A DNA stretch of 55,000 nucleotides from assembly GCA_016946835.1 (NCBI GenBank), contig JACVTC010000148.1, positions 1-55,000 on the forward strand, given 5' to 3'. This DNA comes from Neocallimastix lanati (nom. inval.) (lineage: Eukaryota; Neocallimastigomycota; Neocallimastigomycetes; Neocallimastigales; Neocallimastigaceae). The notes under the pieces were generated by a model. That model did not search any database and was not told the origin of the DNA. It was given only the letters and a program-made list of their open reading frames with translations. A program made the position numbers and the translations under genes. Positions 11,333 through 46,869 of this stretch are shown piece after piece (position 1 is the stretch's first letter; each line of letters starts with the position of its first letter).

Positions 11333-11600
11333 TTTTTTTTTTTTTATTTCCGGTATGTACATTAGTTTCATCCCTCCCTTAAGGACAATTGGAATATTGA
11401 GATGGTCACTTACTTCCATATAGGCTGATATTGTCCCTACTGTACGGCCTTACTGAGTGTTCAGCATTAAAACTCTGACATATATATTATTGCTGAGAAT
11501 TTTTCTAGTACTTTTCCTTGGAGCGCTTCTCCAGTTCCTAATTTCTTTAAGTGATGATAATATATCCTAACCCATGAACATTTCGTACTAGGTCCCTTGG
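11333..11600 (-). mobile_element. SINE-like element, copy 1 (minus strand), poly(A)-tailed
   Basis: Read on the minus strand this segment aligns over most of its length with 26337-26614. Shared blocks in order are GTACGAA, GGGTTAGG, TTAGGAACTGG, AAATTCTCAG, CTGAACA, CAGTA, GGGACAATATC, CTCAATATTCC, AGGGAGG and ACCGGAA, followed by A-rich DNA. In this copy the poly(A) appears as a poly(T) run at 11333-11345. It has no open frame, so it is a non-autonomous, retroposed-type repeat. The 5' boundary is uncertain and may extend to about 11800. Confidence 0.8.
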
Positions 11601-12180
11601 GAAATTCATGGACGTCAGAAAGATTGCAATTTTGTAGAATATATATTATAAGTCATAAGTAGAATATATATCTACATGTTCACATGAAATCATGTACCCA
11701 AATTCTAGTAATTCCTTTGTTAATATATTTAATTAAGTGATTGTGCATTTCGTGCATTTCGTAAATCGTGCATTTCGTAATGTGGATTATAAATATTTTA
11801 CAATAAAGCCATACATTTTTAAGATATTATGAGTATTTTTAATAATGGAAATTATATTGTTAACTATAATTTTATTATAATATATTAATAACTATAATTT
11901 TATCTAACATATTAGATATATTTTTATTCTTCTTCATTTACTAATTATTAAAATATCAATATATCATATGCATTATAAATAAAGAAATATATTATAAATA
12001 TATTAAGAAAAAAAAGAATATATAAAAAATGCTAAAAATAAAATTTAATAAAAAATAAAGTTAATGTAATACAATGAAAAAAAAAAAGAAAATTTAAAAG
12101 TTATTGTATTATGATAAGAATAGATATCATTTCTACCAAAAATATTTAGTAAAATAAAACAATGAAATAACATCTGTAGA
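11601..12180. other. Moderately GC-richer flank with a GTGCATTTCGT short repeat
   Basis: This may be part of, or an older insertion beside, the SINE-like element. At about 11745-11785 the string GTGCATTTCGT or its core is repeated three times. No gene is recognised. Confidence 0.4.
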
Positions 12181-25958: not shown

Positions 25959-26336
25959 GCCGATTATCGGCAGAAAGATACATAGACAAAATAGCACCTT
26001 TAATACTGTTTTTTTTAAAAAATTATTATTAACACTTTATTTAAGAAAATACAATTAAAAAATTATTATTATTAACACTTTATTTAAGAAAATACATTTT
26101 AAAAAGTATAACAATTGTTTTTATAAATACATAAAATAAATTACGAATAAATATATGTGATGTCATATATTAGAATAAATTATAAACATTTTTATATTAA
26201 ATTAAGTTTATATCATTATTAATATATATATATATTTTTGAAATTTATACAATAAAAATGCTATAAAATAGTTAAAAATAGAAATCTCAATAATATCTTA
26301 ATGTAAATTAAAAATAAATTTATTATAAACAAAGTG
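25959..26336. other. AT-rich spacer with a short direct duplication
   Basis: About 26018-26097 holds two copies of a block containing AAAAATTATTATTAACACTT followed by TATTTAAGAAAATACA, a local tandem duplication. No gene is seen. Confidence 0.5.
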
Positions 26337-26596
26337 CTGGTACGAATCTATTTGGGTTAGGTTATACTGACCTAGCTTCAAAGATAAGTTAGGAACTGGA
26401 AAAGCATTCCGAGACAAAGAAAATTCTCAGTAATATTATACATATTAGAGTCCCAATACTGAACATTCAGTAAAAATGTCCAGCAGGGACAATATCCACC
26501 TATGCGAAAGCATACGGAAGTGTTGTGACTACCTCAATATTCCCATGCCTTCAGGAAGGGAGGCTGTAAATAAGAGCGGTACACACCGGAAGTAAA

Positions 26597-26614
<18 letters not shown>
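26337..26614 (+). mobile_element. SINE-like element, copy 2 (plus strand), poly(A)-tailed
   Basis: Homologous to the minus-strand segment 11333-11600 over its full length, ending CACACCGGAAGT plus a poly(A) of about 22 (26593-26614). Near its 5' end GGTACGAATCT (26339-26349) resembles a tRNA/Pol III B box (GGTTCGAATCC). No A box is recognisable upstream, so a tRNA-derived head is only a suggestion. There is no open frame. It lies about 220 bp upstream of the DIM1 start codon and could supply promoter sequence there. Confidence 0.8.
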
Positions 26615-26628
<14 letters not shown>

Positions 26629-26835
26629 ATACTTTTTATAGTTAATTTTTTATAATAATTATTTATCCAAATTAAATTTTATCATTATAAAAAAAAATTA
26701 TATATATTAATAATCAATAAATCACATGATATATTTTATTTATGCATTATATTTATAATAATTCTTTTTTACTGTATAAAAAAAATTAAATAAAATAAAA
26801 TAAAAATTATATTAAAATTATAGAAAAAAAAAAAA

Positions 26836-30825: not shown

Positions 30826-33800
30826 TTATTGACATTTAATATAACGATATAATTGACACCAAGCTCTTGAATCAATATTACGAATATCTATCTTGACTTC
30901 TTCACCACGTTCTAATTGGCGTCTCATGGCAATAGTCATACAAGTTTTTAAAATTCCTAAAACTTTCAAAACTTTTTCAGAAGTAACACAACGCATTAAG
31001 GCACGAAATTCTTCAGTTTTCTTATCAACAGAAATTGAATTCCATGGGAAACCAGAAGGTTGTGATTGAAGTATCTTACCTCGTTTCCATTTTACACCAC
31101 AACTATTACATAACCGTGGTGATTCCGGTGGACCATGGCGCCATAAAGGCGTACTAGTTGAACCACAATATGTACATTGTTTTGGAGAAGAGGAATAAAA
31201 ATGACTATTTCTAGTTGATGTAATGACGGATGATGGTACAGTAGAGGTAATAACAGCAATTGGATCAATTGAAGAGGTAGTAGTGACAGACACTTGAGTA
31301 ACAATGGATTCATTTGATTTTTCCTTAAATTCAGGTTTAATATAAAGAGTATTACCATTTTCTTCAACTTTAAATTTATTATCTTTATTTTCTTTATTAA
31401 TAGAATAAAAATAATTTTTATTTTGATCAGAAATTATTTGGTCATTTACAGTGGACCATCTTTTTCTTGATTTACCACTCTGTCCTTTTGGTCTTCCTTT
31501 ACCGCGAGTGGGTGCTGGTACAGTTGTATTATTTGAATTAATAACACTAGAAGTTAAGGTGATATTACTATTTTTATTATTATTGGCTTCGATGAAACTA
31601 TGAACTTTCAATGCATTTCTTCCTCTTACTTTTTTTATGGTACGAGTTAATAAACCATGTTTTTTCCCTATTTTTCTATTTTTACTTTCCTTTAAAATTA
31701 ATTCACTAAGGTTTACTACTTTTTCTTTTTTATTTGTAATATTTCTAAATTCCTTACTTAATAGAGAACCAATATTTGATCTAATTTTATTCTTCTTCTC
31801 TTGACTACGTAATAAAATGGATTCTTTTATTTTAATCAAATTTTCTGGTGTAAGACTTTCAATATCAAAAATGTTTTCTAAACTATCATTCAATTCAAGA
31901 ACATCAACAAATTCTTGTCTAATCGGTAAATCAATTTCCATTTTATTATTATTTTCACTATTATTATTTTCAATACAAATAGTATTATTATTAATATTAT
32001 TTTCATCACGATCATGATCTTTTTCAATAGTATTCTCAATAAAATGATTACCATTCTTTTGATTATTAATTTTTCTCTTTAAATTAGAATTAGTATTAAT
32101 AATAATATTAGTAAAAATTTTATTACAAGATTTATCTTCCTTTTTTGTATGAACAATAATTTTTGGAAGAGGTGGATTGATTTTAATAATATTATTTTTG
32201 ATATATGAAGAAGTATTTTGATTTTGTTGTTGCTTTATGCGTTTCATTTCCATTAAAGATAATGTACTTTCTTCTTCTTCTTCTTCTTCTTCGTCTTCAT
32301 CATCATCTTCTTCTTCAAATTCATCATCATCATCATTATCCTCTTCTTCTTCTTCTTCACTATTTTCATCTTCATCTTCATCAACATCAACATCTTCTTC
32401 TTCTTCATCATCATCATCATCTTCTTCTTCTTCTTCTTCAAACACATCATTAAATGTATTATCAGATTCTTCTATTTCATCATCAGTATAATCAGATTCC
32501 TCTTCATAATATTCTTCTTCATCATATGTTTCTTCATCTTCTTCCATATCTTCTAATTCATCATCATTATTATCATTATTATCATATTCTTCTTCTTCTC
32601 GGTTAGGATTGATATAAATATTTTTATTATCAACAACTTCATCCTTTCTTTTATCTCTTCCGTGGGAAAAATCAAAGGATATTGTAATTCTTTTTTGTTT
32701 TTGCTTTGATTTTTCAATTTTTAGAGTTTTATCAGAAGTTTCTTTTGGGTCTTCTTCCATTGAATTCCTGTTATCAATTGTAGTATTTTCATGAAATTGA
32801 AAAGAATCCTCTTGGGAAACATCCTTTTGAATTGTTTTCTTTGAAATAGTGATTTGATGATCAACATTATCAAAACAGACTGGTTCCTTTACCTTATCGA
32901 ATAAAGAAACTTCCTTTTCAATTTTTATATTATTTTCTTCTTTTTTACTTGATTTATCATCTTTCTTTTCATCTTTCTTATCTTTAGATGCTTCATTCAA
33001 TGATTTTTCATTCTCCATATTATTAATGTTGATATTTTCTATAGTCTCATGATTAGCCATTTCAGAAATTAATGGTTCATTACAATTACTACTGAGATTA
33101 AGTAATAAATCATAGCAAGAAAAATTTGATGGATTTAGAAATTCTGATGGTGGCATTGAAATTTCATTTGAAGAAGAATTTTTACCAATTATAGGAGTTA
33201 TTGGTAAATGAGAAGATAAGCTCTCTTGAGCTTCCTTTTTTTCATTACTACCACTACCTAACATAACATCAGAAGTTGGGGTTGGAAGGGTAGGTATAAC
33301 CTCAGATTTAATCGTTAAACCAGGATTTGTTGTTACTCTTTCATTTAGATTAGAAGACTCTTTAGAAATTACCTTTAAAGAACTATTTTCATTTGAAATA
33401 AAAGATTTTTCATCCAAAATTTCCGTGGGTGTTTTAACCTTGTCTTCCTTCTTTTTATTTGCCTCTATAGATACTTTCAAATTATTAGTAGTCGGAGTTT
33501 TCCTTTTTTCTAAGGAAGAAGATTTCGACGAAAACGAAATACCTAAAGTTTTAGAAAGAGTAGTATTAGAATGATGATGTACTGAAGAAGAAAGTGGATG
33601 TATTACTGCTGATGATGTTTTGAGATTATTTTTATTTTTATTTTTCTTTGTTAATAAATTAAAACTGCTATGATTAAGATTATTAACAGTACTTGGATAA
33701 TTACGATGAATTTTATTTTGATTAGTTTTAGGATTTGTCAATTTTGAAGCTGCAGTCAAAGAAGTTGCAATATTTGAAGCTGTCGTAAAAAGATTACTAG

Positions 33801-35263
33801 ATGTAATATGACGATGATGATATTTAAGAGTGCTATTGTAAGATACTGAAGGTGGTGTAGAAGAAATGTTTGAACTGTGGTAATAATTACGTGAATGACG
33901 TAATGGTAAAGAATTAGTAGGCACAAAACGTAAATTTGAAGAAATATTATTAAATCCAATAGTTGAGGTAGAATCATCCAAAGGATTTAATAAAAGAGAA
34001 TCTGTAAGTAATGAATTTTTTGTTATTATATTTGAATTAAATGATAAATTTTTAGTATTCATTAAAGATATTGTGGCTTCATTAGCTAATAATTTAGAAG
34101 AATATGGTATTGAATTATTATTATAAGCTACATCTGATGAATTTAATGAACTTGTTGTGGAAGAATTTAATAGTGAAGAATTTAAGTCCAATGCTTTGGA
34201 GGCTAAAGTGAATAAATCAACAGATGAAGGAGTTGCAGTAATATTATTTACAAATGGATTAACCTCTTCATTAGCAAAGTTATTCAAATTTAAATTATTA
34301 AAATCATTAACATTATTCATAAGAGATAACGATGATGATGTTGAGGATGAGGATGATGAAAAATCATTAGATCTTGTAGTTGAAGTTGTAGATGATGGTA
34401 AATACATTAATGAATTTATTATATCATCATTATAATAATTGAAATGATTAAAATTAGTGGTAGCAGAATTTAAATTAGTTAATAAAGAAGGATTTGTTGA
34501 AGACATAAGAGATAATGAAGGCTCTGTTGCATCAATATTTGTAGAATCTCCTAATCCTTGTAAACTACTAGCATTGTCATTATTCACTTTATCCCAATCA
34601 AAAAAGTCATTGGTAGCATCATATGGTATTTCATTTCCAGCAGTAATAGAAAGATCTGTACCTGTATTATTCATCAATGGGGAAGGAAGTGTAGAATTAT
34701 CTATATTAGTAAGGTTGGGTATATTTGTTAATGACATATCTAATGAGTTTAATGGATACATAGATGAAGGAAATGGTGGTGGTAATGAATTATCATTTCT
34801 ATTCATATTTAAATGATCAATCAACATTTGAGTATCAATAATATTTTGTATTTGCTGACGAATTAATAATGTTGTTAATGATTCTTTCTTTCTTTTAAGG
34901 GAATTCAAAGCTGCTTCAGTAAATGCCTTGGTACTTCTTTTCGCTTCCATCCATTCAATCGGATTTAACTGAAAAGTTTTATTTTTGAAACATTCAGCAG
35001 GTAATTTCTTATTTGTAAAAAGTATTTCTTTCTTTTCATTTTCATCTTCTACTTCTTTTCCTTTTCCCTTTTTATCACCATTAATTATCTTTTTTTCTGA
35101 TATCTTGTTTATTTTACGATTTTCTTTAGAATCTAATATCGCAGAATTTTTTTCTTCTTCCTTTTTCTCTTCTTTAGAATCTAATATCATAAAATTTTTT
35201 CCTTCTTCTTTTTTCTCCTCTTTAGAATCTAAATCCACTTTATCTTTTTCTACTTCTTTTTCC

Positions 35264-35294
<31 letters not shown>

Positions 35295-38142
35295 TAAAAT
35301 CTATTAACTGAGATTCCTTATCTTTTATTTCCTCATCTTCTTCAGTAAATTTCATTGGAGAAGATGGAGGTGACGAAGATGGAGGTGTAGGAGGTAAAAA
35401 GTTACAATTCATTAAGCATTTCATCTTTTCTTTTTCTATCAAATCCTCCTTATTAAATTCAGAGATTGAAGATGAAGAACGTTCTGTTATTAAAATGTCG
35501 TTTAATTCTTTCCTTTCATGCATTTCTACAACAGAATTTCCTTTTTCAATTTTGTTATTCAAAGGATCATCATTTTTTACTGTTTCAGGAGGAACTTCTG
35601 TAATCTGTAAACCAATATCTGGTTTTATTATATCTTTAATTTCTATATTAGTTGAAGAAGAAGAAAAAGAAGAAGAAGAAGAAATAGTAGATGATTTAAA
35701 AGCATTCTCTTTAAAAGCTTCAGTATTACTTGCTTTTAATTTTATTTGCTTTAGTGATGATTGATTTGTAAAATGATGAAAGAGCTCTGCCCATGGTGAA
35801 TTTTTTAAAATATCTGATGATATATAAAAAATGAAATTTTTTGAAGAAAGAATATTGTTATTACGATGAAAAGTACAATTTTGACATTGTCCAAATCTCT
35901 TTTGATGAATAATATAATTTTTATATTTAGAATGACGATTTAATAATTTCCCCTTTGAACATTTTGAATAAGTATATGTTAAAAGTTTTGGATAGGAATT
36001 AATTGGAATATTAATACTATCTTTATTTATATATCTTATTTTTTTATTTATATGATTAATGGTATCAAAATGATAAGATTTTGGTATCTTTTTTAATATC
36101 ATATTCCAATTAATATAATTAAAGGATGGCATAGTATCTTCTTCTTTCTTCTCATATTGATTATACTTTCGCTTTTTGGAAAAAGAAATTGCAATTGGCT
36201 TTTTATTAGTAGAAGATGATGGTGTACATGAGGTAGATGTTTCAAATAAAGGTGATATTGATCCTTCAACAGATTTACCCTTTGATCTTATTATTTTTAT
36301 TTTATTATTTTTTCCAAAAATAAGACATAACTTTTCTTTCTCTTTCTTTTTGCATAATTTTATTTGTTCATCATGACGTGTTGATGAAAAGATCTCAAAC
36401 GAATCTTCATAATGATTTTCATCAGTAGCCATTATATCATCATCCTCCTTATATTTTGGTTCATCTTCTAAAAGCATAGGTAATTCAATGGCCTTTAGAA
36501 AACTAGATAAAACTGGATAAGAGGAAGAAGATTTTAATGACTTTCGATGACGTTGATAGTCATTTATGCATTGATCTTTTAGCTCATTCAAAAAATCTTC
36601 TGGCATCTCCATAATTTTTTCTATTAAATAATTTTCAATGTTTTTACCCATACGATGAATTATATTACTCTCTTTGAAATAACTTCTATAGCAATGAAGT
36701 AACATTTGTTGTAAATCATAAAAAACACTATAAATAGTTGAGTATTTATCTTCTTTCAATTGTCGTTGAATAATGTTAAGATTTATATTTTCTTTAATTA
36801 AATCATAATTTAATTTTGTATTATTCTTGTTTACCTTATTATTTTTATATTTACTTTTAATATTTTCTAAATTTATACTATTTTCAGAATTAATATCATT
36901 TTCTTTTGGTTCATCATCATTTTTTTCAATAATATCATTAACAATGTTATTATTATCATTATTACTATTATATTTCTTTTCCATAATTATATCACCTTTT
37001 AATGAATTTAAAAATTGACCAGAATCAGCATGCTTTGATAAATCTTCTATAAGATTCATACAAAGTGATTTATATTCCACTGACATTTTACTTTCTATAT
37101 TCTCGTTTTTTGAATCTGAAATCTTATAATAACTATCATGTAAGTTTCTTTTAGATTTTAATAGATGATTTTGTTTGGAATGTGATATTGACAAAGTAGT
37201 ATTTTTTATATAATTAGAATCAATTTCGCCATTAGAAAAACTATTATCATAAATACCATTGTTGGATTTTATTATAGAAGAAGATGTATTAAATAAGTTA
37301 GAATGCATAGTGGATGTTAATAATTTGTCAGTATTATTTAAGATTCGAGAACGATCAATTTTTGGATGATTAATTATATTGATGCAATTATTATTTTTAT
37401 TATTATTGCAACTTCTGGTATAATGACTAGTAGTCGAATGTAATATAGGTGTACTAGTTTGAGAAGTTGGTGTATTTTTTAATTTTAATAAATACTTACT
37501 TGACTCTATTGAATTCTTTAAAGATGAAATTGATTTATCAAGTGAAGCGCTATCTTTTGATGATGGAGTAATAGGAGTAGATGGTGTAGTAGACGGTGGA
37601 GTAATTGAGATTGCTGTTTCAAATATGGTATTTTTAAATGATTGAATATCTATTGCTTTTTTGTTATTGCTTACAGTATCCAATGAATCTTGATAAGAAT
37701 TATTATTTTTAGGATCTTTATTAATAGAAATACTAATTAAATCAATATCCGCAGAATTTGCGGTTTCTCTCATAGAAGATATTGAATTTTTATGAATTTT
37801 AGGTATTGAATGTAAACGTGAATGATGATTATGTTGTTTTTGATAAGTACTTATATTATCAACCGAGGTTAAATTTGGAATTAATGAATTCGATATACTT
37901 TCTTTTGATGATAAATAAAAATTTTTAGAAGTTGTATTTGGTGATGTGATTAAATATCTATCTGAAGATGATGTTGAAGTAGAGGCTATTGAGGTTATAT
38001 CTAATCTAAGTTCTTTTGATTCGGTTCTTGATGTAACATGTGCTTTTTGAAAAAGGTTAACTTTCTTAGATGTACAAGAAATAGATTTTGGTGAATTTGA
38101 ATGAAAAATAGCAACCATTCTATTTCCAAATAATAAATACAA
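30826..38142 (-). CDS. Very large GATA-type zinc-finger protein, single exon, 2,438 residues
   Basis: Uninterrupted 7.3-kb frame. Near the C-terminus (about residues 2320-2350; about 31099-31178) lies one GATA finger, CTYCGSTSTPLWRHG then LCNSCGVKWKRGKIL, spacing CX2CX18CX2C, the longer-loop type frequent in fungi. A conserved-looking tail follows (FRALMRCVTSEKVLKVLGIL and IDSRAWCQLYRYI). About 140 residues before the finger, TRGKGRPKGQSGKSRKRW resembles an AT-hook. Residues about 1840-1960 are an Asp/Glu-rich acidic tract. Around residues 450-530, STIYSVFYDLQQMLLHCYRS and SNIIHRMGKNIENYLIEKI resemble the last helices of a bromodomain (speculative). The rest is Ser/Thr/Asn-rich and probably disordered. 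It likely acts in the nucleus as a DNA-binding regulator. The first ATG (38142) or the Met at codon 9 could be the start. No intron occurs, unlike the gene's neighbours. Confidence 0.85.
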
Positions 38143-46747: not shown

Positions 46748-46869
46748 GGGAGAGTTGCATTTCACCAAGTGGCATATTGATATAAATAAATGAATAAATA
46801 AATAGATAAAAATTCAAAATATTTTTTTTTTTAAACTTGTTTTTATTATGTTTAATAATCAATTAAAGA

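Follow-up and report, generated by a model that had tools for sequence, protein, structure and literature searches.

The 55,000-nucleotide stretch of DNA analysed here, to which we refer as the window, contains two short segments in opposite orientation that the original prediction took to be copies of a dispersed, abundant retroposon, raising the question as to whether they belong to a mobile element and, if so, how such an element was transcribed and moved. The genome that we searched comprises 199 Mb in 762 contigs and contains at least 150 matches to CBM_10, a family that includes fungal dockerins (all 150 scored candidates matched, from 1,440 first-look candidates); such dockerins mark anaerobic gut fungi. 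The G+C content of the window ranges from 11-28% per 2.5 kb, and 18.2% is the figure given for Neocallimastix californiae (PMC11003543). The CBM_10 matches and the low G+C content together suggest that the host is an anaerobic gut fungus. The window also holds an open frame of 2,438 aa (30826-38142, -), in which a GATA zinc finger lies towards the C-terminus.

Two related segments and their copies in the genome

Comparison of positions 26201-26640 with the window by blastn aligns 26353-26606 (+) with 11574-11333 (-) over 263 columns at 71.5% identity, with 30 gap positions (E 1.2e-30), and both segments close with CCGGAA(G/A)T followed by poly(A). The relationship described previously, about 260 bp in the same order with a common 3′ end, is therefore sound, and the segments do belong to an element, but those 260 bp are only the 3′ 40% or so of a unit of about 635 nt. 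Against a family profile of 644 positions, copy A extends over 26333..26592 (+), corresponding to the 3′ domain (profile positions 374-643), and is followed by an A-rich tail read in the sequence at 26593..26614 (+). Copy B extends over 11347..11744 (-), covers the middle and 3′ domain (profile positions 226-643) and so reaches further 5′ than the segment first noted; its A-rich tail, also read in the sequence, lies at 11333..11346 (-). The nhmmer scores are 247 bits (E 1.7e-74) for copy A and 333 bits (E 1.4e-100) for copy B with the family profile, whose alignment contains copy A, and 133 bits (E 1.1e-40) and 239 bits (E 8.7e-73) respectively with a consensus as query, which for copy A was built from 18 other loci.

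Searching the genome with either copy returns many relatives. With copy A as query all of the best 40 of 825 first-look candidates scored as matches, the query itself counted, and these are 74-85% identical, copy A itself excepted. The best 40 of 642 candidates for copy B likewise all matched, again counting the query, at 74-81% identity apart from copy B and its two near-identical duplicates; the latter lie on contigs C118 and C288 and, because the three sequences are 99.6-100% identical, we read them as duplicated DNA and not as separate insertions. A 24-mer from the 3′ domain, allowing at most 3 mismatches, finds 398 matches in the genome (202 forward and 196 reverse), and one from the head of the element finds 139 (69 and 70 by strand), while the same two 24-mers read backwards as a control find none; the equal division between strands fits random insertion.

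The sensitivity of these patterns can be gauged from aligned copies, in which the 3′ 24-mer is detected in 31/54 selected by their 3′ domain and 2/5 selected by their head, and the head 24-mer in 13/21 of the 3′-selected loci. A rough calibration then gives about 700 3′ domains (398 / (31/54)) and about 225 heads (139 / (13/21)), although the calibrating copies are the best-scoring ones and the 3′ 24-mer is present in only 2/5 of the head-selected copies, so that the true numbers may exceed these estimates. The expectation of a dispersed, multicopy family is thus borne out, with an abundance that is modest, and the copies far exceed the two that a simple segmental duplication would leave. Seven loci (L001, L020, L022, L027, L029, L030 and L031) were left out as duplicates from the exact-word duplication, divergence, motif, calibration and target-duplication counts; L029 and L031 were also omitted from the early locus alignments. 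No match to the element patterns was found in viral and prokaryotic contig collections, a result of little weight for eukaryotic relatives.

Anatomy, insertion and decay of the element

Homology between loci extends about 350 nt upstream of the segment first noted and then ends, and at this limit the mean G+C content of 58 loci drops from 20-31% to 13-19%. An apparent homology a further 1.5 kb upstream, returned by blastn with low penalties, was taken as AT-rich noise in light of stricter scoring and the G+C profile, and upstream of the 635-nt unit no common sequence carries through the copies. Alignment of 18 long copies yields a consensus of 632 nt, running from GAACCAGGTTC to the tail, which supplies the consensus that had been called for. 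In the 29 copies reaching its start the three preceding positions are occupied by A (17 copies), T (22) and C (20), which makes (A)TCGAACCAGG the probable beginning of a unit of about 635 nt. The start falls on query letter 1 or 2 in 36/40 scored matches to the head, and on 5 (one), 16 (one) and 17 (two) in the others. The longest stop-to-stop run of the consensus in six frames is 70 aa, in agreement with the non-coding nature originally ascribed to the segments. The 3′ end is poly(A); where the tail begins many copies have AATAAA, and others have AAGTAAAA, which lacks it; by eye the consensus ends have neither an inverted match nor a terminal repeat.

Several copies depart from this plan. In L048 the head, up to about nt 37, is joined straight to about nt 373, and the joint has a short common GGGCTAG-like string. 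L094 and L102 are both missing what lies between profile position 538 and the vicinity of the tail, which would fit a shorter subfamily. A palindromic, MITE-like repeat (GGGAGAGTTGCATTTC... to ...GAAATACAACTCCC) lies inside or beside several element copies; it is present at L036:1263-1492 and L097:256-335, related pieces occur in L025, L039, L040, L047 and L050, and a similar string is found at window position 46755.

The flanks of full-length copies carry target duplications. In a test anchored at the 5′ end and the poly(A) end (from which L004 was also omitted, there being an N in its 3′ flank), 8/18 full-length copies have duplications of 8-15 nt above the 95% level of mispaired flanks, where 0.9 would be expected (p 0.0002, the lowest value obtainable with 5,000 permutations); those of L011 and L033 agree in 13/13 and 10/11 letters respectively. 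The remaining 10/18 have no duplication above this level. Exact duplicated words of at least 10 nt flank 6/55 copies, with 0.58 expected, the count being limited to copies reaching profile position 637. Among 36 copies lacking the 5′ end, both window copies included, 4 exceed the level with 1.8 expected (p 0.13, no significant signal), and for copies A and B themselves no duplication is detectable. The duplications that the original prediction suggested looking for are thus present around full-length copies and not detectable around the two window segments, and because 5′-incomplete copies have no significant excess of duplications, many of the short copies, those in the window among them, would appear to have been broken after insertion. 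One copy, L007, starts at 75 and has an exact 12-nt duplication, and looks like a truly 5′-truncated insertion. With hundreds of pattern matches and duplications around full-length copies, the description of a non-coding, poly(A)-ended, non-autonomous retroposon family is upheld.

The family is apparently old and now silent, judging from its sequence. Divergence from the consensus has a median of 12.3% (9.2-16.8% in 65 copies longer than 200 nt), the closest of the best 40 head matches scored is 93% identical to the consensus, and among the matches listed there are no near-identical pairs except in duplicated DNA, so that the family looks quiet. C>T (14.4%) and G>A (13.3%) changes dominate, all others accounting for 0.7-5.5% each, and the two pooled reach 21.0% at CpG as against 10.6-14.6% in other contexts, an excess that hints at cytosine methylation. 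Such C-to-T and G-to-A changes, together with deletions and later insertions, would account for the decay of the copies.

Promoter, transcript and mobilisation

The original prediction saw a resemblance to a Pol III B box in a string, GGTACGAATCT, near the 5′ end of copy A. The string is indeed present at 26339..26349 (+), but comparison of 51 copies identifies it as an accident of copy A and not a feature of the family: the first letter of the site is A in 44/51 copies, 49/51 have 3-7 mismatches to GGTTCRANYCC (the Pol III B-box pattern) and the other 2 have two, the consensus reads AGTACGTATCT, and a minority of 3/51 copies carry the noted string in part, reading GTACGAATCT from the second letter on. 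The pattern is matched in full by GGTTCGATCCC, about 320 nt further upstream at consensus nt 55-65, in a part of the element kept by neither window copy; such a match occurs in 0.145% of shuffled consensus sequences. It is retained in full in 3/27 copies spanning the site and with one mismatch in 12/27, and its conservation of 0.838 is no better than the 0.849 predicted from its letters, as for dead copies. No A box was found above chance (p 0.19 for the best pattern, 0.68-0.93 for the others).

The head that contains this B-box match folds unusually well. Consensus nt 52-62, among them 8/11 of the B-box letters, are exactly complementary to its 11 5′-terminal nt, and 1/200,000 shuffles has such a match. 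The first 68 nt, including the three extra 5′ letters, fold with a z of -5.4 (0/200 shuffles being as stable), and the 102-nt head without these letters with a z of -2.9; the initial 65 nt of the transcript would form a hairpin whose closing stem, a perfect 11 bp, takes in most of the B box.

In Rfam searches of 14 loci and of 5 loci the head matched no tRNA, 5S, 7SL or snRNA. In E-value mode the 14 loci gave 5 sub-threshold matches, one of them to tRNA in L033 on the opposite strand and outside the element, and the 5 loci gave 3 (snoR25, MIR1886 and TCL6_2), none of them to tRNA or inside the initial 65 nt. A tRNA origin of the head was rejected, ARAGORN finding 0 genes on the consensus head and Rfam no tRNA match there. 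Because the copies are decayed a faint small-RNA origin may be missed, and we therefore call the element SINE-like and assign it to none of the classes SINE1/2/3.

Taken together, these features make it likely that the two window segments are worn pieces of a non-autonomous non-LTR retroposon, SINE-like and about 635 nt long, which was most probably transcribed by Pol III and mobilised by a LINE. In common with SINEs it is short and non-coding, dispersed in both orientations, flanked by target duplications of variable length and terminated by poly(A), with the exception that its head derives from no recognisable tRNA, 5S rRNA, 7SL or snRNA. Its RNA would most likely be made by RNA polymerase III from an internal promoter with its B box at nt 55-65, and would then undergo target-primed reverse transcription at nicked DNA, a LINE supplying both the endonuclease and the reverse transcriptase. 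The helper is plausibly a LINE that takes poly(A)-ended RNA, by analogy with L1 and Alu, and such a role is conceivable for the young LINE found here, which ends in poly(A). There are points against this reading. For Pol III these are the lack of an A box above chance and of any tRNA, 5S or 7SL match of the head, the small number of copies that keep the B-box match in full and its unremarkable conservation, as well as runs of 4, 4 and 5 T residues within the first 107 nt, at which transcription might terminate early; for the LINE helper it is that element and LINE have no detectable sequence in common. The lack of a significant duplication signal in 5′-incomplete copies weighs against the reading as a whole. 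The host tRNAs offer a comparison for the T-runs, since among ten tRNA-matching loci the downstream run is at least 8 in five and at most 5 or more distant in the other five, so that T5 may be only a weak Pol III stop. As an aside, 57/63 scored tRNA-model matches have one identical top score, many of them on contig C555; the ten fetched loci look alike, the five run through ARAGORN are tRNA-Arg (TCT), and a short way upstream of several lies one and the same tRNA-like 3′ end, which would fit multiplication of a tRNA pair.

A different source of the RNA, which we consider unlikely although it accounts for several observations, is a capped and polyadenylated Pol II non-coding transcript that was repeatedly copied by LINE machinery. 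At consensus nt 131 is the string CAGGTAAGTAT, which we take to be a perfect 5′ splice-site and U1-complement string; it is exact in 15/35 spanning copies, is held by 0.02% of shuffles, and would suit a Pol II transcript better than a Pol III one. The AATAAA at many tail junctions and the absence of a recognisable small RNA in the head point the same way. Other copies, however, end without AATAAA, the full B-box match is in the right part of the element, the longest T-run is only T5, and no spliced copy was noticed, unsystematically, among the aligned copies.

A longer coding LINE is a very improbable source, whether the segments are taken as its 3′ fragments or the element as its deletion derivative, notwithstanding the poly(A) end of the element and the many copies lacking a 5′ part. 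The genome holds LINEs that encode an endonuclease and a reverse transcriptase in one frame, and two young poly(A)-ended copies are 98% identical over 3.8 kb, but the element consensus has no match in the 35 loci fetched for reverse transcriptase or LINE-endonuclease matches, and its copies have a common 5′ end with no shared extension, for which reasons this origin was rejected. An LTR element or TRIM is likewise at odds with the poly(A) end, the 8-15 nt duplications and the lack of a terminal repeat by eye, so that the long coding LINE or LTR element against which the prediction was to be checked has not emerged. The two LINE copies at L092 and L093 have a common downstream flank (92% over 1.3 kb), which would fit insertion beside another repeat. 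Finally, segmental duplication or a DNA-transposon remnant without retroposition is scarcely credible. Some copies do lie in duplicated DNA (copy B with C118 and C288, L020-L022, and L026 with L027), but there are hundreds of copies, most with different flanks, and they have a poly(A) end, duplications varying from 8-15 nt and no inverted match of the consensus ends by eye.

Relation to known elements and significance

Several fungi are known to have SINE-like families. The Mg-SINE of Magnaporthe grisea, a tRNA-derived element of 472 bp in about 100 copies with a Pol III promoter sequence, resembles the element described here in being fungal, non-autonomous, of comparable size and equipped with such a sequence (here the B-box match), whereas our element has no detectable tRNA resemblance, is about 635 nt long and is present in roughly 700 copies (PMC5063351). 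AfuSINE2 of Aspergillus fumigatus (140-493 bp, with 4-14 bp target duplications and a degenerate A box) shares the short target duplications and a 5′ region without a cloverleaf and is comparable in lacking a clear A box, but is described as low in copy number and traced to different tRNAs, while the element here ends in poly(A) and has an extended 5′ hairpin in place of a tRNA (PMC5063351). The non-autonomous LTR element Helenus, which carries a tRNA-like sequence, likewise occurs in fungi and is short, and its promoter sequence is internal and of the Pol III type, but it has LTRs, a primer-binding site and, in fungi, 5-bp duplications, in contrast to the poly(A), 8-15 nt duplications and lack of visible LTRs seen here (PMC10886601).

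Outside the fungi Alu offers a parallel. Alu and other poly(A)-ended SINEs are moved by L1-type LINEs, with which they have only the A-tail in common, and our element is like Alu in its poly(A) end, its variable target duplications and the absence of sequence shared with a LINE except the A-tail; Alu derives from 7SL RNA, to which our element has no match. A titles-level search of the literature on anaerobic gut fungi, with most subscription journals outside its scope, found no report of a SINE-like family, and the wider literature on comparable elements yielded no closer match. The family thus seems to be new as far as could be searched, and of an ordinary kind.

The unusual points of the element are its head hairpin and its splice-donor string. 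We offer, as a distinctly doubtful idea, that the 65-nt hairpin, holding the B box in its closing stem, and the U1-binding sequence could jointly decide whether full-length RNA is made and retroposed. If true, this would be a type of gut-fungal retroposon whose promoter-bearing head is a hairpin and no known small RNA. The old insertions of the family are usable as markers, and the family raises the question of how a retroposon that ends in poly(A) and has no recognisable tRNA, 5S or 7SL head was transcribed.
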